Below the pieces are notes generated by a model. It saw only the letters and a list, made by a program, of their open reading frames with translations. It was not told the DNA's origin and searched no databases. From Salarchaeum japonicum (GTDB lineage Archaea; Halobacteriota; Halobacteria; Halobacteriales; Halobacteriaceae), in contig NZ_CP085324.1 in assembly GCF_020614395.1 (NCBI RefSeq), positions 1,927,564-1,991,563 of the forward strand: a stretch of 64,000 bases of DNA. The letters are read 5' to 3'. Below are positions 38,461 to 51,432 of the stretch, piece by piece. A program made the position numbers and the translations under genes. Positions within the stretch are counted from its first letter, which is position 1, and each line of letters starts with the position of its first letter.

Positions 38461-38934
38461 ATGCCTGACGGACGAGTACGCCGGGACGCGTCGCCGTACC
38501 TCACGTCGCTCGACGGGAGCGCGGCCGAACGCGTCACCGCGATGGAGTGGGGACGACACCTCGGCCGCGCGTTCGGCGCGTCCGGCGCTATCAGCGCGCT
38601 CCGTTACTACGAGGAGGTCGGCTGGGTGAGCGAGGCCGTGAAGGAGACGATGGCAGACTACGTGCGCGGCCTCCCGCTCGACGCGCTCGAATCCGACCCG
38701 GAGTACGAGCCGGAGTTGAGCGCGGAACTGGACGACCTCGGAGAGTCGCCGTTCGACGCACACGCGAAGTCGCTTGAGTACGTCGCGGCCATCGCGAACG
38801 ACAACATCACGCACCAGCTCGCGACGATTTCGGGGAGCGCGGCCGCGCGCGAGGCCGCCGCGGCGGCGGGCGAGTTCCAGGAGGACATCCCGGAGCCGGC
38901 GCAGGCCGCGGCGCGCGACGAGGACGAGGAGTGA
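38461..38934 (+). CDS. arlD: Archaellum accessory protein ArlD/FlaD-like
   Basis: The protein has 157 residues and carries the ArlD/ArlE domain: SPYLTSLDGSAAERVTAMEW, ALRYYEEVGWVSEAVKETM and YVRGLP. This cytoplasmic domain is found on proteins that link chemotaxis adaptor CheF to the archaellum motor. A coiled, acidic tail follows. It stands on the opposite strand from the rest of the arl operon and ends 4 nt before the end of arlJ. The same domain closes the ArlCE protein at 44018-45007. Confidence 0.87.
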   Translation: MPDGRVRRDASPYLTSLDGSAAERVTAMEWGRHLGRAFGASGAISALRYYEEVGWVSEAVKETMADYVRGLPLDALESDPEYEPELSAELDDLGESPFDAHAKSLEYVAAIANDNITHQLATISGSAAAREAAAAAGEFQEDIPEPAQAAARDEDEE

Positions 38935-38938
38935 GTTT

Positions 38939-40678
38939 TTAGACGGAGACGAGCGCGCCGACGAGGTAGCCCGTGGCGACGGCGACGACGGCGCTTATCC
39001 ACACCTGGACGACGAAGTGCGTGAGCGTGGTGAGCGAGTGGCCGCGGCTGACGATGCGAATCATCACGGACGTGAGGAGGGCGTTGAGGAGGACGATGAC
39101 GAACAGCATGAACTGGAGTTGGGGGATGTCGTACTGGCTGACGGAGAGCAGGCCGCCGAGTTGGGCGTTGCTGAGGTCCATGTCCTGCGCGATGGTCATG
39201 AACAGCCGGGAGATTTCGAGGCCGACGAACATCGCGAACACGCTCGCGCCCGTGATTCCGTAGATGGTGCCGACGACGGTGCCGGCTTCCTGACTGCGTT
39301 TCCGGCGGAGGTTCAGGACTTCGCTGATGTTCGCTTCGATGAGACTGCCGAGCTGGCGGGGTTCGCCGCCCATGCGGCGGCCGGTGACGTACATGTCGCT
39401 GAACTTCTGGATGAGGTAGGAGCCGGTTTCGGCGGCGAAGTACCGCCACGCGAGGTTGGAGTCGATGCGCATCGAGAGGCGCTTGTAGAGGTCGTCGACG
39501 TTCGTGGTGAGGTTCCCGAAGTCCTTCTTCCGGAGGCTCTGGAGGACGGAGCCGGTGGAGCTCTGCTTGACGGATTCGACCGCGCCGAGCGCGCGGATGA
39601 AGGAGGGGAAGGACTCGTCGCGGTTCTTGATGCGGTTCTGTTCCTGGCGGGCGATGAGGCCGGGGATGATGAAGGGCGTGAACGGGACGGCGAGGAAGAG
39701 CGGGAGCGGGATGTCGTTCCCGACGGGGACGAGTCCGGAGAGGATGCCGTACGTGAGCGCGGTGAGCGCGAGGCTGAGGCCGGTGCCGACGAGCAGGCCG
39801 GTGCGGAGGCGAGCGTTCCGGTCGAGCGCGATTTCGGTGCGGTAGAACCAGACGGGGTCTTTCGGGGCGACGCTGTTCATCGCGTACACGAACACCACCT
39901 GGAGGAAGAGGTAGAGGAGGATGACCGCCATCACGGGCGTCATCGGGTCGATACCGACGATGAACGGGACGACGAGCGCGAACACGAGGCCGAACGTCGT
40001 GGAGAGCACGATGCTCATGTAGACGTCCTTGATGAGCGCGAGGCGGTCGAGTTGGGCTTCGTAGCGCGTGACGAAGCTCTGGATGATGGAGTCCTGTTCG
40101 GAGAGCAGGAAGTCGTCGATGGTCTGGCCCGCGCCGACGGTGTACGCGAGGCGTTCGAGGAAGTCCTGCATCAGGGGGCTGGGGACGCGTTTCGCGCGCA
40201 TCCGGCAGGCGTCTTCGAGGCTCTGGTTCCACGTGTCGATCAATCCGACGATGTGCCCCATCTCCTCCGCGATGGCCTCGTACTCGTCTTCCTTGGCGAG
40301 CGTGCGGAACACCTCCACGCGGTCGATGTTCGTCGTGGAGAGGATGGTGATGTGGGTGATGAAGAGGTGGAAGTGCTCCCGGATCTGTTTGCGCTTCCTG
40401 TCCTGGAGGATTTTCGGGTAGATGAGCGCGACCAGCGGGAGGAACAGGCCGAACAGGACGGTGACGGGAACGACGAACAGCGGGAGACCGAGGAAGAACG
40501 GTAACAGCATGACGGCGAACCCGAGCACGACCGAGGGGAGGATGACGACCAGCGCGTACCGCTGGGCGGGCATCCCCATGTACTCGTAGTCCCGCAGGAG
40601 CGACCGGACGACGTTCCCGATGTCGAACTCGTCGTCGTCGGCCCCGACCTGCGTTCCCGTCCCGGTCTCCGTCGCCAT
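38939..40678 (-). CDS. arlJ: Archaellum membrane platform ArlJ (FlaJ)
   Basis: The protein has 579 residues. It is the archaeal TadC/GspF-like platform: multiple helices near 50-95, 265-345 and 450-578, a cytoplasmic GspF-type domain with LAYTVGAGQTIDDFLLSEQ, and the block MGGEPRQLGSLIEANISEVL. ArlJ anchors the motor and the growing filament. Its ATG directly follows the stop of arlI (TAG then ATG), so translation is coupled. It is the last gene of the minus-strand arl operon. Confidence 0.95.
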   Translation of the reverse strand: MATETGTGTQVGADDDEFDIGNVVRSLLRDYEYMGMPAQRYALVVILPSVVLGFAVMLLPFFLGLPLFVVPVTVLFGLFLPLVALIYPKILQDRKRKQIREHFHLFITHITILSTTNIDRVEVFRTLAKEDEYEAIAEEMGHIVGLIDTWNQSLEDACRMRAKRVPSPLMQDFLERLAYTVGAGQTIDDFLLSEQDSIIQSFVTRYEAQLDRLALIKDVYMSIVLSTTFGLVFALVVPFIVGIDPMTPVMAVILLYLFLQVVFVYAMNSVAPKDPVWFYRTEIALDRNARLRTGLLVGTGLSLALTALTYGILSGLVPVGNDIPLPLFLAVPFTPFIIPGLIARQEQNRIKNRDESFPSFIRALGAVESVKQSSTGSVLQSLRKKDFGNLTTNVDDLYKRLSMRIDSNLAWRYFAAETGSYLIQKFSDMYVTGRRMGGEPRQLGSLIEANISEVLNLRRKRSQEAGTVVGTIYGITGASVFAMFVGLEISRLFMTIAQDMDLSNAQLGGLLSVSQYDIPQLQFMLFVIVLLNALLTSVMIRIVSRGHSLTTLTHFVVQVWISAVVAVATGYLVGALVSV

Positions 40679-42361
40679 CTATGCTTCCGGTGAGTCCGGG
40701 AGCCCACCAGTATTTATCGGCAGCGCCTCGACGCCGTCGCGCTGGAACGTCGAGATGGCGTTGTTCGCCTCCGACCACGACAGCACGTCCTCGTCGATGA
40801 GCCGGCGGATGATTTCGGCGCGCCGCCGGAGTTCGTCGTAAATCTCCCGGGTGTCCTGGTAGCCGAGGAGTTCCGCGATCTGGTCTTCGAGCACGTGGCT
40901 GTTGTTCATGCCCGTGAACACGACCTCGTCGTCGCGGGGATCCCAGTTGAACGCCTGTCGGGTGATGACGCCGCCGTCGTGGTCGCTGTAGCCCTCGATT
41001 TCCTGGACGGAGGTGACGCGGCGGAGCACGCGGTCGCCCTGTTTCACGCGGTTCTGGAAGAGCGCCACGTCGCAGTTGTCCATGAACGTCTCGGGGACGT
41101 TGATGGGTTCGCCCGTGAACCGCTGAATCATCGAGACGATGTCGCTCGCGTGGAACGTCAACATCACGGGGTGGCCGGTTTGTGCGGCCTGGAACGCCAT
41201 CTGGCCCTCCGCGCCGCGAACCTCGCCGACGATGATGTAGTCGGGCCGAGAGCGGAGCGCGGCGGCGACGAGGTCGAACATGTCCACGTCCGCGTTCTCG
41301 TCGCTCCCCTGTCCCTCGCGGGTGAGGAGTTGCTGCCAGGTCGAGTGGGGGACGTTCACCTCGGCCGTGTCCTCGGCGGTGTAGATTTTGGAGTCGCGGG
41401 GGATGAGGGAGATGGAGGCGTTCAGGGTCGTGGTCTTCCCGGACGCCGTTTCCCCGACGACGAACACCGTGCGTTCGTTCTCCAGGCAGAGCCAGAGGTA
41501 GGCGGCGAGTTCGGGGCTGAGCGTCCCCCACTTCGTAATCTGGAAGATGGAGAGGGGGACTTCCTCGCTCTGACGGATGGTGAGGCTCGGCCCCTGCACG
41601 GACACGTCGTCCGAGTAGATGATGTTGATACGGGAGCCGTCGGGGAGCGTGGAGTCGATGATGGGGTTCGAGTCGGACACCGGGGTGTCCATACGTTCGC
41701 CCATGTTCCGAATCCAGTTCTCGAACTCCTCGCTCGACCCGAAGTCCACCGTGGTCGGGAGCATGCTGTAGGTCGCGTGGTCGACGTAGCACTGGTGGGG
41801 GCCGATGACGTGAATGTCCTCGTTCTCGGGGTCGCTCATGATGGGGTCGAGCGGGCCGAGTCCGACGATGTCGCGCTGGAGGCGGTACCGCACCCGGCGG
41901 TAGGTCTCCTCGTCGACGTTCACGGTGGTTCCGATGAACGACCCGACCATGCCGGACGCGACGCCGCCGACGGAGACGATGTCGTCGAGGAGGTCGTCGA
42001 GGTGTTCGTCGAACTGGCGTTCCTCGCTCGGCGCGGGCTTGGTGACGCTCTTGTCGAGGAGGAGTTGGCGAATCGTCTCGTACTGCTGGTGTTCGTTCGG
42101 CCGGAGGGAGGGTTCGACGACGTAGTACGTGGTGTCGATACCCACGTCCCCGTGGATGTGGCAGAACGTCGGGTGTTCCGACGCCGTCGGGTAGATGACG
42201 TGGGGGTTGTGCATCTCGTGTTCGTCCGCTAGTTCGTCCACGTACAGCGGGTACTCGCCGTGTTCCTCCCGGAACGTCTCCAGGTGGTCGCGGAGGTGGG
42301 TGTGTTCGTCCATCAGCGCCTGGAGTTCCGCGCTCGCGCGCTGGGAGCCGAGTTCCGTCAT
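40679..42361 (-). CDS. arlI: Archaellum motor ATPase ArlI (FlaI)
   Basis: The protein has 560 residues and is a type IV/II secretion superfamily ATPase: Walker A VVGETASGKTTTLN at about residue 300, the Asp-box-like DGSRINIIYS, and Walker B-type IIVGEVRGAEGQMAFQAAQT. It powers both assembly and rotation of the archaellum. The N-terminal region is about 170 residues of variable helical sequence. It abuts arlH and arlJ with no spacer on either side, the usual order in haloarchaea. Confidence 0.96.
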   Translation of the reverse strand: MTELGSQRASAELQALMDEHTHLRDHLETFREEHGEYPLYVDELADEHEMHNPHVIYPTASEHPTFCHIHGDVGIDTTYYVVEPSLRPNEHQQYETIRQLLLDKSVTKPAPSEERQFDEHLDDLLDDIVSVGGVASGMVGSFIGTTVNVDEETYRRVRYRLQRDIVGLGPLDPIMSDPENEDIHVIGPHQCYVDHATYSMLPTTVDFGSSEEFENWIRNMGERMDTPVSDSNPIIDSTLPDGSRINIIYSDDVSVQGPSLTIRQSEEVPLSIFQITKWGTLSPELAAYLWLCLENERTVFVVGETASGKTTTLNASISLIPRDSKIYTAEDTAEVNVPHSTWQQLLTREGQGSDENADVDMFDLVAAALRSRPDYIIVGEVRGAEGQMAFQAAQTGHPVMLTFHASDIVSMIQRFTGEPINVPETFMDNCDVALFQNRVKQGDRVLRRVTSVQEIEGYSDHDGGVITRQAFNWDPRDDEVVFTGMNNSHVLEDQIAELLGYQDTREIYDELRRRAEIIRRLIDEDVLSWSEANNAISTFQRDGVEALPINTGGLPDSPEA

Positions 42362-43102
42362 CTATGCCACCGTCCGCGTCACGATTGTCAGGCCGCGACC
42401 CGTCTGTACCTCGTACCCGATGGTGTCGTCCACCTGGTTCCCCATGCCCGCGAACTTCTTCACGACCATCTGTCGGCGGATGTCGTTCCCGACCTCCTCG
42501 GAGGAGAGTTTGAGGTAGATGTCGGAGACGTCGCGGACGGGTCGGAGCGCCGCGTTCGTCAGCGAGTCGGGATTGACGGTGAGGAGAATCGTCTTCCCGC
42601 GGGCGGTTATCGTGCGGAAGAAACTGATGAGGTTCTGCATCACGTCGTCCTCGTCGCCGTGTTCGCGGATGGACTCGTAGTGGGGGTCGTGGAGGAGGAC
42701 GGAGTCGAACCCGTCGAAGATGATGACGTCGCTGTTCCACATCGTCTCCGCCTCCATCAATCGCTGGAGGAGCGGGCGTTTCGCGTCCACCTCGCTGAAC
42801 GTGTTCGTCGTGTCCACGTCCGCGTGCAGGAACAGCATGTTCTCGCGAGTGAGGTGTTTGACGACGCCGTAGTCGAGGGACTCCATCTGGTCGATGAAGC
42901 TCGCCGCCGTCTCCTCCGTGGAGACGTACGTGACCGTGTTCCCGGTCTCCGCGATACCGTACGCGAACCGCTGCGTGATAACGCTCTTCCCGGATCCGTG
43001 TTCGCCCTCGATGATGCCGAGGCTGCCCGCGGGGATGCCGCCGCCGAGCTGCGCGTTCACGCGGTCACGGGTGTCGAGTCCGAGTTCGTAGAGGTCTGGC
43101 AT
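42362..43102 (-). CDS. arlH: Archaellum motor accessory ATP-binding protein ArlH (FlaH)
   Basis: The protein has 246 residues with a RecA/KaiC-like fold: Walker A GEHGSGKS at 33-40 (SGKSVITQRF) and a Walker B-like strand VIIFDGFDSVLLHD. ArlH binds ATP, forms a ring under ArlI and is thought to switch the motor between assembly and rotation. Its stop meets the arlI start without spacer. On the other side arlG ends 13 nt before its start. Confidence 0.95.
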   Translation of the reverse strand: MPDLYELGLDTRDRVNAQLGGGIPAGSLGIIEGEHGSGKSVITQRFAYGIAETGNTVTYVSTEETAASFIDQMESLDYGVVKHLTRENMLFLHADVDTTNTFSEVDAKRPLLQRLMEAETMWNSDVIIFDGFDSVLLHDPHYESIREHGDEDDVMQNLISFFRTITARGKTILLTVNPDSLTNAALRPVRDVSDIYLKLSSEEVGNDIRRQMVVKKFAGMGNQVDDTIGYEVQTGRGLTIVTRTVA

Positions 43103-43115
43103 GGTGGTGGGTGGC

Positions 43116-43571
43116 CTACACGTAGACGGTCACGGTCTCCTCGTCTCCGACGACGTGCACCGAGATGGTGTGTTCGCCGGCATCGAGCGTGTGGGAGACG
43201 GTGAGGCGAAGGATTTCGCCGGGCGCCCACACGTCGCCCGTCGCGTTGTCGGGTCTCGAAAGGGCGTCAACCGTCGCGTACTGGCCGTCAATGAATACGT
43301 CTATTTGGGAGGTCTGGGCGTATAAGTCCTTTTGCCCGGTGTTCTTCACGAGGAGCGTGACGTTTCCGGTGGAGTCGTTGTAGAACGCGTCGCTCCCCGT
43401 GTCGCCGACGATGTCGATGTCGGTCTCGATTTTGTCCGCGGCGGCGAGCCCCGACCCCTGAAGGGTCTGGTCGAGGTCGACGACGCTCGCGGTGAGCGTG
43501 GACGCGACCGTCGCGGCGACGAGGAGGGACGCGATGAAGATGACGAGTTTGTCGACGGAGACGCTCGCCAT
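43116..43571 (-). CDS. arlG: Archaellum stator-like protein ArlG (FlaG)
   Basis: The protein has 151 residues: an N-terminal pilin-like helix (DKLVIFIASLLVAATVAST) and a beta-sandwich outside domain with GNVTLLVKNTGQKDLY and DVFIDGQY. ArlG forms filaments in the pseudoperiplasm and, with ArlF, holds the motor to the S-layer. Its start overlaps the end of arlF by one base. A paralogous N-terminal domain occurs in the gene at 49547-50863. Confidence 0.93.
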   Translation of the reverse strand: MASVSVDKLVIFIASLLVAATVASTLTASVVDLDQTLQGSGLAAADKIETDIDIVGDTGSDAFYNDSTGNVTLLVKNTGQKDLYAQTSQIDVFIDGQYATVDALSRPDNATGDVWAPGEILRLTVSHTLDAGEHTISVHVVGDEETVTVYV

Positions 43572-44011
43572 CAGGACACCACCGTCACGTCGTTCGTCCC
43601 CTCACTCACCGCGTACTCGGTCACGACGACGACCCGCGCGGGTTCGTTCGCGAGCGACAGCGTGAGCGTGAGGTTCTCGCCCGGTGCCCAGACGGTTCGC
43701 GCGCTCGCGCCCTCGACGGCCGTCCCGGGGTTCGTGAAGACGCCGTCCACGAGCAGGTCGGTGTCGTTCACGTGCAGGCTCGTCGTGCCCGTGTTCGCGA
43801 CGCGCACCGTGAGCTCGTCGGACGTGTTGTTGTACGTCACGTCGTCGAGCGTGATGTCCGTGTTCCCGGTCGCGAGCGCGCGGTTCTCGTGTGCGCCCAT
43901 CGAGTCCGAGATGTCCTCGAACCCGGCCTGCGCCGCCGGGACGACGACGCCGACGACCATGAACGCCGCGACGAACAGGATAGCGGCCGCGCCGTTCGTA
44001 CTGAACCCCAT
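43571..44011 (-). CDS. arlF: Archaellum S-layer-binding protein ArlF (FlaF)
   Basis: The protein has 146 residues. Residues 1-30 form a hydrophobic helix (GAAAILFVAAFMVVGVVVPA), and the rest is a beta-sandwich with NTSDELTVRVANTGTTSLHV and DLLVDGVFTNPG. ArlF binds the S-layer and caps ArlG filaments to give the fixed part of the motor. It lies between arlCE and arlG with almost no spacing. Confidence 0.92.
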   Translation of the reverse strand: MGFSTNGAAAILFVAAFMVVGVVVPAAQAGFEDISDSMGAHENRALATGNTDITLDDVTYNNTSDELTVRVANTGTTSLHVNDTDLLVDGVFTNPGTAVEGASARTVWAPGENLTLTLSLANEPARVVVVTEYAVSEGTNDVTVVS

Positions 44012-44017
44012 GCGAGG

Positions 44018-45007
44018 CTACGTCCCCGCGAGCTCCGTCTGTTGGGCCAGCTTCTGGATGTGTTCGAAACTCTCGCTGTGCGCCTCGACGGACAGTTCGC
44101 TCGGCGGCCGGGACGGCTGGTCTTCGTCCAGGTCGTGCGCGCCCGACAGCACGGTCTCCAGTTGGCGTTTCACGGAGGGGCTTATCCAGTCGATTTGGGC
44201 GTAGTAGTCGATGGTCTTCAGCGCGCCCGCCGGCCCCGCGGTGTCCACGAGCATCGACACCCACTGCATCAGGAGGACGTCCGTCGCGTACGTCGGCGCG
44301 AGCGCGTTCAGGTAGGGCGAGTCCCCGGACTGTGACGCGGACACCGGGCGCGCCGGCGGTTCCACGGGTTCGTCCGCCGCCTCGTCGTCTTCCGCGTCGG
44401 GTTCCTCGTCCGCATCCGCGTCCGCGTCGAGGTTCGCCTTCAGGTCTTCGAAGCTCACCACGTCCTCGTCGTCGCTCTCGTCCTCGTCGGCGTCCTCGGT
44501 GGTGTGGCGTTCGTGGCCGATGTCGTCGGACGCCTCGCCGGACATCACGCCGTACGTCTCGTCGTCGGGCGCGACGGCGTCGCGCTCGCTCGACGACGAG
44601 AAGGGGTTGATGTCGTCGGTCAGCCGGTCGTACACGCCGAGCAGGGTCGCGTTCGTCTCCTGAATCTCGTCGAGCCGGGCCTCCATCGACTCCTGGTCGT
44701 TCTCCAGGGACTCGATGGCCGACTCGTTCGTGCCGACGCGGTTCCGGACTTCGTCGAGGTTGTACTGGAGTTCCTCGACCGCGTCACCCACGTCGCCCTC
44801 GAACGCCTCCGTCGAAATCCGGGGCGGCTGAGGTTCCGGTTCCGATTCCGTCTCGGTCTCTCCCGAGTCGGCGGCTTCGTCGTCGGTCTCCGAGTCCGCG
44901 TCCGTCTGCTCCGCGTCCGCCTCGGCGTCCCGTTCCTCGTCCTTCGATTGCGTGTTCGGGACGAGGGAGTCGAGGCCGAGTTCCCGCATCACGTCGCCGA
45001 GGTTCAT
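44018..45007 (-). CDS. arlCE: Archaellum fusion protein ArlCE (FlaCE)
   Basis: The protein has 329 residues. A central ArlC-type coiled coil (ELQYNLDEVRNRVGTNESAI and following heptads, about residues 87-145) is joined to a C-terminal ArlD/E domain (SPYLNALAPTYATDVLLMQW). Between and before them are long, highly acidic, probably unfolded linkers. Fusion of ArlC and ArlE is usual in haloarchaea. The protein binds the motor cytoplasmic ring and receives switch signals through CheF. It is the first gene of the arlCE-F-G-H-I-J operon. Confidence 0.93.
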   Translation of the reverse strand: MNLGDVMRELGLDSLVPNTQSKDEERDAEADAEQTDADSETDDEAADSGETETESEPEPQPPRISTEAFEGDVGDAVEELQYNLDEVRNRVGTNESAIESLENDQESMEARLDEIQETNATLLGVYDRLTDDINPFSSSSERDAVAPDDETYGVMSGEASDDIGHERHTTEDADEDESDDEDVVSFEDLKANLDADADADEEPDAEDDEAADEPVEPPARPVSASQSGDSPYLNALAPTYATDVLLMQWVSMLVDTAGPAGALKTIDYYAQIDWISPSVKRQLETVLSGAHDLDEDQPSRPPSELSVEAHSESFEHIQKLAQQTELAGT

Positions 45008-45103: not shown

Positions 45104-45715
45104 ATGGCTGACGAGAACGCGGTGCACGACATGGTCGTCGACCTGCTCTCGGAATGGGAGAGCCCGGTCGCCGACAAGCGCGTGTTCACCCGGCGGCTCA
45201 CGACCTACCTCTCGGAGGAACTCGCCGACCGTGGCCTGGACATGGCCGTCGAGCGGACGGCGCAGGGCCCCTGCGACATCGTCGTGGGCGACGTGGGCGT
45301 GCTCGTGTTCACCGACTTCAGTCACGCCGACACCATCGAGTTGCGCTCGCAGAGCGACCGCATCCGGGAGCGCGTGGAGACGCTGGTCGTGTTCGGCTAC
45401 CTGCTCCCGGAGCGCGACCTCGACCGCTGGCGGATGGGCGAGTTCAAGTACGAGGCGATGGGGTTGCGGCTGGACGAGGTGACGTTCCTGCGGCGCGACC
45501 CGAAGACGGAGACCGTCGAGGAGCACGGGTGGCCGAGTCGCGTGTGGCGGTTCGCGATCGCGGTCGTCGCGCTCCTCAGCATCGTCATCGGCATCGAACT
45601 CGCCATCCTCTACCAGGCGTTCGGCGGGGTCGCGCCGAGCCCCGAGTTCACGCTCGCGGCGGTGGTCGTGCTGTCCGCGCTGCTCGTGTTCATCTACGAG
45701 CGCATCCCCGTCTAG
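45104..45715 (+). CDS. Predicted membrane protein with soluble N-terminal domain, unknown
   Basis: The protein has 203 residues. About 145 N-terminal residues are soluble, with a core GPCDIVVGDVGVLVFTDF. Two membrane helices follow (WRFAIAVVALLSIVIGIELA and FTLAAVVVLSALLVF). The core strands resemble the sheet of PD-(D/E)xK nuclease folds, but the ExK position reads FTD, so an active nuclease is doubtful. It is divergent from the arlCE operon across 96 nt and could share regulation with it. A TTTAAG at 45062-45067 is a possible TATA box. Confidence 0.6.
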   Translation: MADENAVHDMVVDLLSEWESPVADKRVFTRRLTTYLSEELADRGLDMAVERTAQGPCDIVVGDVGVLVFTDFSHADTIELRSQSDRIRERVETLVVFGYLLPERDLDRWRMGEFKYEAMGLRLDEVTFLRRDPKTETVEEHGWPSRVWRFAIAVVALLSIVIGIELAILYQAFGGVAPSPEFTLAAVVVLSALLVFIYERIPV

Positions 45716-46164
45716 AGGTCGAGGTCGGACTCCGCGAGCAGGACGCGGAGCACGTCCTCCGGCGGCTCCGAGGGGTCGATTCGATGGGCGTACCAGCGGA
45801 GCGCGCGCTCGAACGTATCGACGACGTTGTTCGACGCGAACCGCTCGTCCGCGACGCCGTGGTCGGTCTTCACGGCGAGCGCGGCCGCGTACTGCTCGGG
45901 AACCGCGGAGAGCGCCGCGGCCGCGGACGGGGTTTCCGCTGGCGTCGGCGAGTCGTCCGTCTCACCCGGGAGGTCGTCCGCGGGCCGGGGGTCGGGCGAC
46001 CGGCCCTCGCTCGTCGAGACAACGTACCGACCGTCGCCTATCTCCTCGACTTCCTCGCGACCCTCGACGTCGAGGTCTTCAGGGGAGAGCACGCCGTCCT
46101 CGGCGAGGTCTTCGGGCGGAACGTCCTCCACGTCCTCGACCGTGGGGTTCGAATCGTCGGCCAT
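45712..46164 (-). CDS. Acidic protein of unknown function near the archaellum operon
   Basis: The protein has 150 residues. It opens with an acidic stretch (ADDSNPTVEDVEDVPPEDL), has a segment EEIGDGRYVVST, a Pro/Ser/Thr-rich linker and a helical C-terminus (FASNNVVDTFERALRWYAHR). No catalytic motif is visible. Its end overlaps the convergent gene at 45104-45715 by 4 nt. The placement beside arl genes is like haloarchaeal motility clusters, so a link to the motor or chemotaxis is possible. I do not recognise the family with confidence. Confidence 0.6.
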   Translation of the reverse strand: MADDSNPTVEDVEDVPPEDLAEDGVLSPEDLDVEGREEVEEIGDGRYVVSTSEGRSPDPRPADDLPGETDDSPTPAETPSAAAALSAVPEQYAAALAVKTDHGVADERFASNNVVDTFERALRWYAHRIDPSEPPEDVLRVLLAESDLDL

Positions 46165-46237
46165 ACGGGAGCGTGGAGCGCGAGCGACATAATCTCGTGG
46201 GCGAAGCATTCAGGGCGCGCGCCCGCGTCTCTCGGGT

Positions 46238-46417
46238 ATGGTCTCGCTCTCCATCGTCGCGGCCGGCCTCGGACTGGTGGTCGCGGCGGCGGCGTTCCTC
46301 CGGCTCGCGGACAGCGACGAGACCGACGCCGTCCACCTCGTGGTACTCGAATACGGGTTCGCGTTCGCGCTCCTCATCGCGGGGTTCGGCCTCATCGTCA
46401 TCGAGATGCTCACGTGA
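46238..46417 (+). CDS. Small two-helix membrane protein
   Basis: The frame encodes 59 residues starting MVSLSIVAAGLGLVV. It has two hydrophobic segments joined by a short acidic loop (LADSDETDAVHLV) and ends in LIVIEMLT. High codon-position GC and the clean two-helix layout support a real gene. Function unknown. It precedes a lipoprotein gene by 39 nt on the same strand. Confidence 0.6.
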   Translation: MVSLSIVAAGLGLVVAAAAFLRLADSDETDAVHLVVLEYGFAFALLIAGFGLIVIEMLT

Positions 46418-46456
46418 GGCAACAACGCTTTTCCCCGTCAGGGGCCGCGTACTGGT

Positions 46457-47023
46457 ATGGAACTCGGACGACGCGCGTTCGCCGGCATCCTGGGTGCGGC
46501 GGGCGCGGGCGCGCTCGCGGGCTGTTCGTCGCTCACCGGCGACGGCGGGCGGAGCGAGGAGACGGTGACGGCGACGGAGCCGAACGCGGACGGCGAGGGG
46601 ACGCTCGGGGAGCTCCGCTACCTCATCGAGACGAAGCAGGGGGAAAACGACCGCGCGATACAGCTCACGCGGATGGCGACGGGCACCGCGAGCAACGACG
46701 ACGGCGAGTTCACGTACGTCACCGCGACCTACGACTCACAGGCGAGCGACCGCGGCGACTTCATCAACGAGGTGGGCGTGTTCGCGCGGAGTTACGCGAC
46801 GTACGTCGGCGCGGGCGGGGAGGCGGCGACGGACTTCACGGTCACCGTGGCGGACGGGTACGACGGCCAGCCGTCCTCGTTCGGCATCGCGCGGGCGTGG
46901 GCGCGGCGGTACAACGCGGGCGAGATGTCCGGGAATCAGTACATCGGGAACATCGTCTCGACGTTCGAGGAGACGACGACCGGGAGCGGCGCGAACACCT
47001 CAATCCGGGGCGATAAGCTATAA
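46457..47023 (+). CDS. Putative lipoprotein, unknown function
   Basis: The protein has 188 residues. ELGRRAFAGILGAAGAGALAGC is a Tat-type signal with lipobox, so a lipid-anchored surface protein is expected. The mature part is about 165 residues with ELRYLIETKQGENDRAIQL, and FTVTVADGYDGQPSSFGIAR, which suggests an alpha/beta domain. No family is recognised. It is followed by two coupled membrane protein genes on the same strand, within the arl neighbourhood. Confidence 0.65.
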   Translation: MELGRRAFAGILGAAGAGALAGCSSLTGDGGRSEETVTATEPNADGEGTLGELRYLIETKQGENDRAIQLTRMATGTASNDDGEFTYVTATYDSQASDRGDFINEVGVFARSYATYVGAGGEAATDFTVTVADGYDGQPSSFGIARAWARRYNAGEMSGNQYIGNIVSTFEETTTGSGANTSIRGDKL

Positions 47024-47049
47024 GCCCCCGTGGTCGCCAGAGTTGGACG

Positions 47050-47199
47050 ATGAACGTATCGTTCGAGAGCGTGTCGGCGCGCGTCCCGAGTCGGCTGTGG
47101 CCCGGACGCCGCGCACACCTCCCGCTCCGAGTGGCTCCCATGCTCCTCGTCGGGATGATTCTGCTCGTTCTCGGCGTGTTGAGCACGGCGGCGTTCTGA
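47050..47199 (+). CDS. Small single-helix membrane protein
   Basis: The frame encodes 49 residues (NVSFESVSARVPSRLWPGRR at the start) with one hydrophobic helix (VAPMLLVGMILLVLGVLST) at the C-terminus. Its stop lies one base before the ATG at 47201, which points to coupled translation with the larger membrane protein. Function unknown. Confidence 0.55.
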   Translation: MNVSFESVSARVPSRLWPGRRAHLPLRVAPMLLVGMILLVLGVLSTAAF

Positions 47200-47200
47200 G

Positions 47201-47947
47201 ATGTCCTCGAAGACGCCGAGCACGAAGGAAGTAGAGGCGGTGAGCTGGCTCGTCTCCCGGAAGATTTGGGCGAGCACGGCCGTGATAGCGGGCGTGTTCG
47301 TCGTGCTCATCGCCCTCACGGGCGTCGTGCTGTACGACGCGCCCCTGATGCGGGGGTTCCGGCGGAGCGCGTCGAACCCCATCGCGGTGCTCTACATCGT
47401 CCTGTTCGCTCGCGCGCTCGCGTTCGTGCTCGCGCAAGTGCGGCGGGACGCGGCGGTCGCGCGCGGCGACCTCTCGATAGTGAGCGACGCCTCGCTGATG
47501 GGGATGACGACGGTCGCGGCGTTCTCCGTCATCGGCGTCATCGCGACCGGGGTCGCGCTCCCGCTGTTGGTCGCGACGACCGACCAGTTCACGTACCTCG
47601 CGGTCGGCATCGCGGGGCTCGTCGTGCCCGTGAGCTACCCGATACTCGTCTACCAGCTCGGCCAGCGCACCGCCACCGACCGCTACGAGCGCGGGTTCCA
47701 CGTCCTGCCCGCGGCCTGGCACTACCTCTGGACGCTCCCCGTGGTCGTGCTCGTGTGGTACCTCGCGCTCGGCGTCGACCCCCTGCCCGTGACGGGTGAC
47801 GCCGCGCGGTTGTTCGACGCGCAGACGGTGTTCGTGGACGTCTGGACGTTGCTCTACGTCGCCATCGGCACCCCGACCCTGCTCGTCTTCCTCTATCCCT
47901 TCCGGTGGTACGCGGAGCGCGTCGTCCGCGTCGTCCTTCCCTCGTAA
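47201..47947 (+). CDS. Six-helix membrane protein, unknown
   Basis: The protein has 248 residues and six hydrophobic segments, beginning with STAVIAGVFVVLIALTGVVL and ending with LLYVAIGTPTLLVFLYPF. The loops are short and no signature of a transporter family is visible. It directly follows the small protein at 47050-47199. It might be a permease or an assembly factor; I cannot tell. Confidence 0.65.
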   Translation: MSSKTPSTKEVEAVSWLVSRKIWASTAVIAGVFVVLIALTGVVLYDAPLMRGFRRSASNPIAVLYIVLFARALAFVLAQVRRDAAVARGDLSIVSDASLMGMTTVAAFSVIGVIATGVALPLLVATTDQFTYLAVGIAGLVVPVSYPILVYQLGQRTATDRYERGFHVLPAAWHYLWTLPVVVLVWYLALGVDPLPVTGDAARLFDAQTVFVDVWTLLYVAIGTPTLLVFLYPFRWYAERVVRVVLPS

Positions 47948-47994
47948 CCGACAGCCCTTGATATTTAAGGCGTCGGGCGGTGTAGCGAGCGTCA

Positions 47995-48348
47995 ATGGCC
48001 GACACGAAAGACTACCTCCCCGAGAGGCTCCCCGGCTTCCGCGACATCAAACCCCGCAACCAGGCCGCGCTCGTCGTCCTCTCGGCGTTCGTCGTCAGCA
48101 TCGCCGTCGCCGCCGTCGCGACAGTCGCCGGCATCGAACCAGGTCACGTCATCCCGGTGCTCGCCACCGTCGTCTTCCTGCTGTTCCTCGGCGCGAGCCT
48201 CGTCGTCTTCCGCGCGATGTTCGTCGCCGCGCAGAAAGCAGACGGCAGCGTCCAGACCGCCTTCACCCACCCCGCGTTCGCCGTGCTCTTCGCGCTCGTC
48301 GTCTTCGCCGGCGCGCTCTTCCTCGGCTTCCTCAACCAGTACGTGTAG
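47995..48348 (+). CDS. Three-helix membrane protein, unknown
   Basis: The protein has 117 residues: a soluble start (ADTKDYLPERLPGFRDIKP) and three hydrophobic helices at about 24-46, 51-74 and 91-113. The sequence cttgatatttaag about 30 nt upstream of its ATG is a likely TATA element, so it may have its own promoter. No motif gives a function. Confidence 0.6.
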   Translation: MADTKDYLPERLPGFRDIKPRNQAALVVLSAFVVSIAVAAVATVAGIEPGHVIPVLATVVFLLFLGASLVVFRAMFVAAQKADGSVQTAFTHPAFAVLFALVVFAGALFLGFLNQYV

Positions 48349-48732: not shown

Positions 48733-49344
48733 TTAGAGGCGGACTGCTTCGCCGTCCTCAGCGTCCGCGAGGGAAGCCGGGACGTTGAGCTGGAAGACCG
48801 TCTCAGCACCGGAGGAGGTCACGAAGGTGAGGTGGACTTCGTCACCGCCTTCAAGGTCTTCAAGCTCCGCGACGGGGTTGGTGCCGTCGCTGATGTTAAT
48901 GACGACCTGGAAGCGGTCGTTCTGCGAGTTGAGGACGGGAACCGTGCCGCCCTCGTCCGTCACTGCGTTAACGCTGAAGTCCTCGTTGGTGAGGGTCGTA
49001 GCGCCGCTCGGACCAGTCCACCGAATCGTGGTCTTGCTGACGTTGATGGAGTCGGAACCGGGCGCGAGGCTGACCGAGATGGTCGTCTGGTTGATGACCT
49101 TTCCATCAGTGCTGTTGTTCACGATGCCGGTTGCGGCGCTCACGTCGAGCCGGTCGGTGACGCCGGACTGGGCGTCCTGGCTCGTTGACTGCGCGGATGT
49201 CTGAAGCAGGCCGGCCGTGTTGATGAGGACGCCGGCCGCGAGCGCGGCGACGAGGATCATCGCGATGAACACGACGAGCGTTTCGATACCGATCTGGCCC
49301 CGGTCTTTCTCGAAGTCGGGGCGGGGAATGCTGATGTCTACCAT
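48733..49344 (-). CDS. Archaellin (archaellum filament protein)
   Basis: The protein has 203 residues. The class III signal is EKDRGQIGIETLVVF, cleaved by the prepilin-type peptidase after Gly16 (RG/Q). The helix (VVFIAMILVAALAAGVLINT) builds the filament core. The outer domain is acidic and has several Asn-x-Ser/Thr sequons (for example NNST, NQT, NVS, NIS) that could be N-glycosylated. Only one archaellin is seen here, while many haloarchaea have two or more in tandem. It is on the same strand as the arlCE operon, 3.7 kb upstream of it. Confidence 0.95.
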   Translation of the reverse strand: MVDISIPRPDFEKDRGQIGIETLVVFIAMILVAALAAGVLINTAGLLQTSAQSTSQDAQSGVTDRLDVSAATGIVNNSTDGKVINQTTISVSLAPGSDSINVSKTTIRWTGPSGATTLTNEDFSVNAVTDEGGTVPVLNSQNDRFQVVINISDGTNPVAELEDLEGGDEVHLTFVTSSGAETVFQLNVPASLADAEDGEAVRL

Positions 49345-49546: not shown

Positions 49547-50863
49547 TTACGCGACGCCGATCGTCGTGTCCGTATCGACGATGACCTGTTCACCGGATTC
49601 GGTGAGTATGTATCCGATGTCTCCGCTGGGTCCCTGCATGTACCGTATCGGGGCCGGGTCGCCGGCGTTCGAGGCGTACTCGACGTAGATTATCTCGGGT
49701 GTGTCGTCGTCGTCGATGTCCGCCGCTCCCATACCCGTCCCGGTTTCCGGTTGTTCCTGAACCCCGTTGGGTTGGTAGGAGGTGAGCGAGCCGGACGTGA
49801 ATTCGAGAATCGAGATGTATCCCGAGCCGTCGCGGTAGGGGACGCCGACGTTTCCGTCATCGTCGAAGTCGCCGGGCGTCCCGACGCCGAGGGGAGAAGA
49901 GAGACTCTGGGAGGACGAGTGGACGGTGCCGTCGTCGTCCAGGAAGGTGATGCCGGGGTTCGACGTGACGAAGAGGAGTTCGTCGGCGGAATCGCCGTCG
50001 AAGTCGGTGATTCCGATGATACCGTTGGCCTGCGCGTTCGACTGGTCGGCCACGGTGAACACGTCTCGGCTGTCGAGCGTGACGCCGTAGATACCGGAGT
50101 TGTTCCCGAAGAATATCGAGCGGTCGGAGCCGTTCCACGTGCCGACCGCGACCCGGGTGCCTTCGTTCGTACTGTCGCTGGTGAACGGCTGACCGGGGAG
50201 GGTGACGTTGGTGCCGTTCCCGTACGCGATCTTCAGCGCGCCGGACTGGTTCACGTACGGGATGTCTGCCGCGCCGTCCTCGTCGAAGTCCTGGGACGGC
50301 CCGAGTCCTTCGGGAACCGTCTCGTTGAGGTAGGTGGTGACGGCTTGTGTGTCCGCGTCGTACAGTTTCACGGAGCCGGAGAACACCACGTCTCCGCTGA
50401 GGTCGGCGGCGCTCCCGTAGAACGGGAACGTCAGGAGGGAGCGGCGTTCGTTGGAGCGGACGACGACGCGGTGTGCGCCCTCGTCGATGGTGGTGTTGAG
50501 GGTGATGCGGGCGACGTTGCCGGGCCGCCAGTAGTCGCCGTCGAGGACGGTGATGTCGGTCTCCTGGACGAACTGGCCGTCGATGAGGGTGTCGACGCGG
50601 TCGGGGTTGGTGGAGAGGACGTTCTCGCCGGTGTTCTTGACGAGGAGGGTGACGGTCGTCTCAGAGGCGTTGTAGATGGCGCTGGAGCCGGGGTCGCTGA
50701 TGATGGCGAAGTCGGTGTCGAGCGTCTCGCCGTAGTCCTGGCCGGTGTCGCGGATGGCGGTGGAGACGTCGTTGGCGACGCCGGTGGCGGTGCCGGCGAG
50801 CATCGCGGCGACGGCGACGGCGGCGATGAAGAGGATGACGTGGGAGGCGGAGACGCTGGCCAT
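49547..50863 (-). CDS. ArlG-like domain fused to FG-GAP/VCBS-type repeats
   Basis: The protein has 438 residues. Residues 1-150 match the ArlG plan and share blocks with the ArlG at 43116: MASVS, a pilin-like helix (VILFIAAVAVAAMLAGTATG), SETTVTLLVKNTGENVL and DTLIDGQF. The rest holds at least four Asp-rich calcium-binding loops of FG-GAP type near residues 190 (DFDEDGAADIPYV), 285 (DFDGDSADELLFV), 332 (DFDDDGNVGVPY) and 381 (DIDDDDTPEIIYV), typical of integrin-like propellers. It lies just upstream of the archaellin on the same strand. It may be a motor-linked or S-layer-linked adhesin; its function is inferred only. Confidence 0.8.
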   Translation of the reverse strand: MASVSASHVILFIAAVAVAAMLAGTATGVANDVSTAIRDTGQDYGETLDTDFAIISDPGSSAIYNASETTVTLLVKNTGENVLSTNPDRVDTLIDGQFVQETDITVLDGDYWRPGNVARITLNTTIDEGAHRVVVRSNERRSLLTFPFYGSAADLSGDVVFSGSVKLYDADTQAVTTYLNETVPEGLGPSQDFDEDGAADIPYVNQSGALKIAYGNGTNVTLPGQPFTSDSTNEGTRVAVGTWNGSDRSIFFGNNSGIYGVTLDSRDVFTVADQSNAQANGIIGITDFDGDSADELLFVTSNPGITFLDDDGTVHSSSQSLSSPLGVGTPGDFDDDGNVGVPYRDGSGYISILEFTSGSLTSYQPNGVQEQPETGTGMGAADIDDDDTPEIIYVEYASNAGDPAPIRYMQGPSGDIGYILTESGEQVIVDTDTTIGVA

Positions 50864-50919
50864 CGATTGGGAGTGCTTCGTCGCACGGACGGATAAGCGT
50901 TGAGGCAGGCCGTTTCGGG

Positions 50920-51432
50920 TTATTCGGGCGCGTGGACGGTGAGCGGGCCGCCGCAGCGGCCGCAGGCGTACTGTCCGGGGTTGCGGACGAGGCGGGATTC
51001 GCGGTAGCGGGGGAGGCGGTTCTCGCAGTCGGCGCAGACGACCCACCAGTCGGGGTCGGTGAAGCGCTCGCAGTGGGTCGTGGTGTCGAGGCGGTCGGAG
51101 AGTCGCTGGAAGCGGTGGCCGTGGGTTGGGTCTGCGTGTTCGGTGACGAGGTGGGCGTGCGCGAGTTCGTGGCGGACGGTGCTGGCGACGGCGTGCCAGC
51201 CCTGGTTCTGGAAGAGCCGCCACGCGAGGCGTACTTCGAGGGGTGTGTCGTCGCGGTAGCGGAGGAGGCCGGCGCGGCGTTTCGCGCGCGTGCTCACCGA
51301 CCACTCCAGGTCGGAGACATTGACGGAGAGGTCGTGGTGGGCGACGAGGTCGCGGGCGTACACGCGGACGGCGGCGAGGAGTTCGTCGTGACTGCAGGGC
51401 GGCGTGACGGCGTACCACTCGACCTCGTTCAC
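50920..51432 (-). CDS. SprT-like zinc metalloprotein
   Basis: The protein has 170 residues. It has HELAH at about 88-92 (STVRHELAHAHLV) with a third His about 12 residues later (HGHRF), and a C-terminal zinc ribbon with VCADCENRL and ACGRCGGPL. This is the SprT/Spartan-like layout; eukaryotic Spartan digests DNA-protein crosslinks. GTG at 51432 is used as start because a TATA-like CTATAC lies 25-30 nt upstream and no ATG is in frame there. Confidence 0.8.
   Translation of the reverse strand: MNEVEWYAVTPPCSHDELLAAVRVYARDLVAHHDLSVNVSDLEWSVSTRAKRRAGLLRYRDDTPLEVRLAWRLFQNQGWHAVASTVRHELAHAHLVTEHADPTHGHRFQRLSDRLDTTTHCERFTDPDWWVVCADCENRLPRYRESRLVRNPGQYACGRCGGPLTVHAPE

Follow-up and report, generated by a model that had tools for sequence, protein, structure and literature searches.

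How the motor of the archaellum is fixed in the cell envelope is an open question, and the location of ArlF and ArlG in situ is, according to a 2025 review, still needed (PMC12024892). What, then, are we to make of a haloarchaeal gene that joins an ArlG-type protein to a beta-propeller, and that lies immediately next to the archaellin gene? The window analysed here, the whole stretch of 64,000 nucleotides taken from Salarchaeum japonicum (contig NZ_CP085324.1), contains this gene together with an arl locus, with the following features:

38461-38934, plus strand: stand-alone Arch_fla_DE (ArlD/E-like) protein
38939-40678, minus strand: ArlJ
40679-42361, minus strand: ArlI motor ATPase
42362-43102, minus strand: ArlH
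43116-43571, minus strand: canonical operon ArlG (169.7 bits on the NCBIfam ArlG model)
43571-44011, minus strand: ArlF (136.6 bits, cutoff 110)
44018-45007, minus strand: ArlC/D-E type fusion (FlaC_arch and Arch_fla_DE)
48733-49344, minus strand: archaellin, with an N-terminus of prepilin-peptidase type (DRGQIGIE)
49547-50863, minus strand: fusion of an ArlG paralog to a beta-propeller, 438 aa
50420-50863, minus strand: ArlG domain of the fusion, residues 1-148 (helix 3-49, beta-sandwich 52-148), without class III signal peptide
50399-50419, minus strand: linker, residues 149-155 (AlphaFold2 model, low confidence at 151-155)
49550-50398, minus strand: beta-propeller module, residues 156-438, ending in IGVA (FG-GAP_3, AlphaFold2, Foldseek, profile boundaries)

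Coordinates, strand and length of the fusion gene are as a previous sequence-only reading gave them. The archaellin, which that reading placed some 200 nucleotides away on the same strand, is indeed found downstream at a measured distance of 202 nucleotides, and it is the sole archaellin found in this genome. A longer, GTG-initiated version of the gene, in the same frame (49547-51418), is not credible, since it would overlap the SprT-like gene at 50920-51432 and since the ATG at 50863 matches the start of every ArlG. An artefact of start choice or of read-through is ruled out as well: the reading frame begins at the ArlG ATG, and the layout is common to five genomes, in which, outside the window, genes were called by a codon-bias caller, so that their starts may be off. 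Between the archaellin and arlCE, at 45104-48348, we observed small genes whose counterparts are kept together in arl loci of a second genus, with 33-59% identity, which suggests that they are unrecognised archaellum-associated genes.

The first half of the protein belongs to the ArlG family. Residues 1-146 match positions 1-148 of the NCBIfam ArlG model (NF052591) with 156 bits, for a cutoff of 110, against 53.5 bits for the protein on the ArlF model (NF052590), and the model of pilin and archaellin N-termini (TIGR02537) finds no match in the fusion while it recognises the archaellin and the proteins of L059 and L065. The assignment to ArlG rather than to a generic type IV pilin, as proposed from the sequence, is therefore upheld, and these curated models rule out the generic pilin for residues 1-146; Pfam Arch_flagellin, which covers ArlG, ArlF, archaellin and pilin alike, makes no discrimination among them. 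A prepilin-peptidase signal, that is, a class III signal peptide, is absent from the fusion and present in the archaellin. The MASVS start, the helix and the TVTLLVKNTG and DxxIDGQ blocks are common to the fusion and to the operon ArlG, as had been noticed (39% identity over 139 residues, E 4e-28), and 36-37 of the 42 positions conserved in canonical ArlG are retained. In one respect the early description needed amending: the protein has the ArlG layout, but it is a paralog that exists beside a normal operon ArlG and is not the motor's only one, the slot between arlF and arlH being occupied by 43116-43571. Searched against PDB chains, the fusion sequence alone gave no match, and an ArlG profile matched archaellins and not the Sulfolobus ArlG chain.

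The second half was thought to hold at least four Asp-rich loops of the FG-GAP/VCBS type, and four separate loops of DxDxDG type, beginning at D192, D287, D332 and D382, are indeed seen:

50264-50290, minus strand: loop 1, DFDEDGAAD, residues 192-200
49979-50005, minus strand: loop 2, DFDGDSADE, residues 287-295
49844-49870, minus strand: loop 3, DFDDDGNVG, residues 332-340
49694-49720, minus strand: loop 4, DIDDDDTPE, residues 382-390

To judge from their motifs, these loops would be of the calcium type. Pfam FG-GAP_3 is found in three stretches of this half, with a score (27.4 bits) barely above the gathering threshold of 26.9. In the AlphaFold2 model of the full protein, built from an alignment of 37 rows (mean pLDDT 85), the helix and the beta-sandwich are followed by a poorly defined linker (151-155) and then by the propeller; modelled alone, the latter reaches a pLDDT of 86 and a pTM of 0.86, with residues 159-436 confidently folded as a beta-propeller. 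The mutual orientation of the two domains is not to be trusted, because only five alignment rows span both. Foldseek retrieves varied beta-propellers (LRP6/LDLR, the FleA and PLL lectins, CRTAC1, TolB), with TM-scores of about 0.4-0.6 for most, E-values down to 1e-6 and 9-17% identity, and propellers also dominate the matches of the full model. Prediction of the structure thus bears out the propeller, while the term 'integrin-like' that had been attached to it is loose: our own reading of the DSSP strand list, which is not the output of a tool, gives six blades, the C-terminal strand closing blade 1, against seven in integrin.

The complete layout recurs in four further genomes of the family, at 44% (G003), 40% (G006), 37% (G010) and 35% (G018) identity, well beyond what chance would allow, and these four proteins score 129-152 bits on the ArlG model. 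The search for the same architecture in haloarchaea and in the wider phylum found it in these five genomes of a single family; there was no further fusion among 391 haloarchaeal genomes and none outside the haloarchaea among 295 genomes sampled from the phylum, and a scan of named genomes gave a single weak propeller match, in a bacterial MAG. With such a patchy distribution, with propeller-less paralogs being common and with a propeller whose dN/dS is near neutral, one might think of a neutral or decaying gene fusion devoid of specific function. We consider this very improbable, as the reading frames are intact in five genomes across three genera, the position of the gene is conserved in two of these genera, invariant residues are present in both domains, the terminal GxA included, and the same architecture arose repeatedly and independently.

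In G003 and G006, which belong to one genus, the fusion lies directly 5' of the archaellin gene, in a locus that preserves, besides these two, several of the small genes common to the window, arlCE-F-G-H-I-J and an arlD-like gene. With the window's genome, this makes three genomes, from two genera, in which fusion and archaellin are neighbours; in the third genus (G010, G018) it is located far from the arl cluster, so that the adjacency first noticed in the window extends to other genomes without being a general rule. A role as an accessory of archaellum regulation or assembly might be invoked here, the propeller starting or regulating assembly of the filament rather than anchoring it. Propeller proteins at the tip of type IV pili, the PilY1 family, control assembly of these pili, and the fusion immediately precedes, on the 5' side, an archaellin gene in three genomes, among them the window's, where no other archaellin gene was found. 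This role is nevertheless improbable: the fusion has no profile match to the PilY1/PilC families, archaella are assembled without it in most arl-bearing haloarchaea, and it is unlinked to archaellin in G010 and G018.

Association with the archaellum system as a whole is visible at the level of genomes. A true ArlI, for which a match of at least 700 bits was required, occurs in 22 of the 26 genomes of the family, among them the five genomes with a fusion, each of which also has a separate operon arlG; the four genomes that lack it have no ArlG-type protein of any kind. The fusions are thus found only in arl-bearing genomes and the N-terminal half of the window's protein fits ArlG better than pilin, two points on which the sequence-only reading could have failed. 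In six relatives of the genus of G010 and G018, the ArlG paralog is a protein of about 151 residues without propeller, and it is away from arl in all four neighbourhoods read (G012, G013, G014, G019). This distribution is consistent with a link to motility, within small numbers of related genomes, and the linkage with arl (11 of the 22 arl-bearing genomes against 0 of the 4 arl-less ones, all closely related) is suggestive only. Many related genomes with arl genes lack a fusion, so that swimming does not require it.

Several observations made in passing concern the same families. The other species of the window's genus (G025) has neither a true ArlI nor any ArlG, so that the archaellum system as a whole differs within the genus. 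At least two haloarchaeal families have ArlG paralogs that stand alone, well away from the arl clusters (L135:1990-2457, L136:1943-2395, L041:9717-10172, L043:9725-10183, L045:9777-10232, L130:2907-3368). Inside arl clusters, we found arlG genes in tandem duplicate (L131:1870-2875, in G054) and arlF genes in tandem duplicate (L086:1545-2446, in G173).

How the two halves came together may be read from their trees. Canonical ArlG groups apart from the fusions and the off-operon paralogs (support 95/94, or 77/87 with more rows), the fusions of the window, G003 and G006 come together (100/98), and those of G010 and G018 are placed among the propeller-less paralogs (99/95). The AU test rejects one clade for the five fusions, both on the propeller tree (p 0.013) and on the larger tree of the ArlG part (p 0.017), p being 0.063 on the smaller one; a single clade of all off-operon ArlG paralogs is not rejected (p 0.285). 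The simplest reading of these sequences would be one or more old duplications of ArlG, followed by at least two graftings of the propeller on ArlG and by one on ArlF, and loss combined with exchange of modules could mimic part of this pattern.

The two halves also differ in pace. Between G003 and G006, the ArlG part of the fusion is 88% identical (dN 0.073, dS 0.267, dN/dS about 0.27), slightly above the 81% seen for operon ArlG, while the propeller is 49% identical (dN 0.463, dS 0.531, dN/dS about 0.87); these figures come from one pair and a simple counting method, and dS is also raised in the propeller (0.53 against 0.27). The contrast fits a constrained base bearing an exposed, changing head that tracks a partner; as dS is raised there too, the fast propeller could also reflect weak constraint. 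An abrupt recombination breakpoint between the two parts was looked for in this pair and rejected, identity dropping gradually along the protein without a clean break.

The propeller is in fact not restricted to ArlG. Its boundaries, as defined by profile, run from about position 151-162 to the terminal GxA, and in G376, a genome of another haloarchaeal family in which operon arlF and arlG are present as well, the same module follows an ArlF-type domain in a gene away from the arl cluster (L070:1459-2694, plus strand, also L088:9407-10642): residues 1-135 match positions 1-137 of the ArlF model with 100.8 bits, below the cutoff of 110, and FG-GAP_3 comes next. It is also C-terminal to pilin-like proteins, of the Pilin_N (L059, L065), DUF7266 (L053, L064) and DUF7261-like (L049) types, and N-terminal in large secreted proteins of Ig/PKD type. 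Present on ArlF-type, pilin-like and large secreted proteins alike, the propeller is thus a module that moves among the surface proteins of haloarchaea. Clusters of DUF7266/DUF7261 pilin-like genes have one propeller-bearing member each (L053:1498-2904, L054:946-2352, L064:961-2316, L049:586-2400), and the window's genome has a second copy of the propeller (G000:C1:63430-64269, in L003:1330-3654), situated close to the N-terminus of a large Ig-type protein that is secreted. ArlG also carries a graft of a different kind: in an off-operon paralog from another haloarchaeal family (L129:1562-2326, plus strand, 136 bits), an extra C-terminal stretch of about 105 residues has no Pfam match.

Here we meet the main rival account, that of a plain surface adhesin or lectin disconnected from the motor, in which a retired ArlG paralog is used as membrane helix and stalk while the propeller attaches to other cells or to surfaces, independently of rotation. 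The company that the propeller keeps speaks for this, since ordinary pilin-like proteins of the type IV kind and secreted proteins of Ig/PKD type bear it too; so do the lectins FleA and PLL among its structural neighbours, the fast evolution of the head and, in G010 and G018, a fusion gene unlinked to arl. It is less easily reconciled with an ArlG part that retains 36-37 of 42 consensus positions and evolves as slowly as operon ArlG, with the restriction of fusions to arl-bearing genomes and with archaellin adjacency in two genera, and we regard it as somewhat unlikely. As the propeller is also carried by ArlF-type and by ordinary pilin-like proteins, a general surface-display module is at least as likely as a device specific to the motor.

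We can describe the gene product as an ancient haloarchaeal ArlG paralog with an exchangeable propeller placed C-terminal to a normal ArlG beta-sandwich. As for its role, we tentatively favour, at rather less than even chances, a modular subunit of the stator family, which would polymerise via ArlG and display its fast-evolving propeller towards the S-layer or further out. This proposal is modelled by analogy on two known situations: in the pseudoperiplasm, ArlG forms a filament that is helical and open, its presumed cap being ArlF, a protein that binds the S-layer (PMC8667602), and in bacteria bulky modules grafted on pilins are exposed at the tip of the pilus, where they serve adhesion (PMC8179133). 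The ArlG scores, the retained positions and the two well-formed domains on a short linker argue for the stator subunit, together with the archaellin adjacency in a conserved arl locus, the absence of ArlG from the arl-less genomes of the family, the occurrence of the module on ArlF-type and pilin-like proteins, its repeated grafting and the contrast in pace between base and head; the unlinked fusions of G010 and G018 and the many arl-bearing relatives without fusion count against it. The ArlG part would enter the envelope as ArlG does, its helix in the membrane and without processing by prepilin peptidase, and would join the ArlG/ArlF assembly through conserved ArlG faces. It would most likely be a terminal, cap-like, or a sparse subunit, because a head of 290 residues would crowd a continuous filament. 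Stiffened by calcium, the propeller would be positioned at the S-layer or outside it and would there bind a variable partner, which may be the S-layer glycoprotein or a glycan, a neighbouring cell or a surface, so that contact or anchorage would be added to the base of the archaellum, operon ArlG not being replaced. A broader view, possible but to be held with some doubt, is that the propeller was acquired in independent events by ArlG paralogs, on at least two occasions, and by an ArlF paralog, anchors doubling as heads for S-layer contact or for surface sensing and adhesion: with what seem to be repeated haloarchaeal grafts, the motor anchor may also serve as a surface-contact device. If the fusion acts at the base of the archaellum, surface contact and motility would be connected in Archaea. 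Moreover, an ArlG that naturally bears a bulky, recognisable head, in an organism with a single archaellin, is a ready-made probe for the position of ArlG-type subunits by cryo-tomography.

How does this protein compare with known systems? A literature search covering largely papers available without subscription found none that links ArlG to FG-GAP or refers to ArlG paralogs outside the operon, and in the same literature the 'modular pilin' papers that mention archaella deal with bacterial pili or are general reviews, with no archaeal or archaellum case. New here are the sharing of the propeller with ArlF-type and pilin-like proteins and the result that the trees of both domains reject one common clade for the ArlG fusions. 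With ArlG (FlaG; NF052591), the fusion has in common a full-length match above cutoff, the same start, helix, KNTG and DGQ blocks and the lack of a prepilin-peptidase site; it differs in lying outside the operon slot and the canonical group of the tree, and in carrying a propeller of 280 residues where an ordinary ArlG has about 150 in all. ArlF (FlaF; NF052590) may be comparable in function, as a connection between the ArlG filament and the outer envelope, and the ArlF-type protein of G376 bears the same propeller, yet the window protein is an ArlG by sequence (156 against 53.5 bits). With FG-GAP/VCBS propellers (integrin alpha, CRTAC1, the AAL/FleA and PLL lectins, LDLR/LRP6) it shares the fold and the Asp-rich loops, at a sequence identity of 9-17% only, and integrin alpha has seven blades where six are read from our model. 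The closest parallel in design is with the modular type IV pilins, such as PilB with its vWA module and PilC with its lectin module in Streptococcus sanguinis (PMC8179133, PMC9934059), where a small filament-subunit module is likewise joined by a short linker to a bulky C-terminal functional module, a head bearing a metal site, which in the fusion is a putative one. These are bacterial proteins, which act in pili and have a class III signal, whereas the fusion has no such signal and belongs to the stator family of the archaellum: it works like a modular pilin but is not one and, if it acts at the base of the archaellum, it would extend the principle of modular pilins to the stator of a rotary motor.
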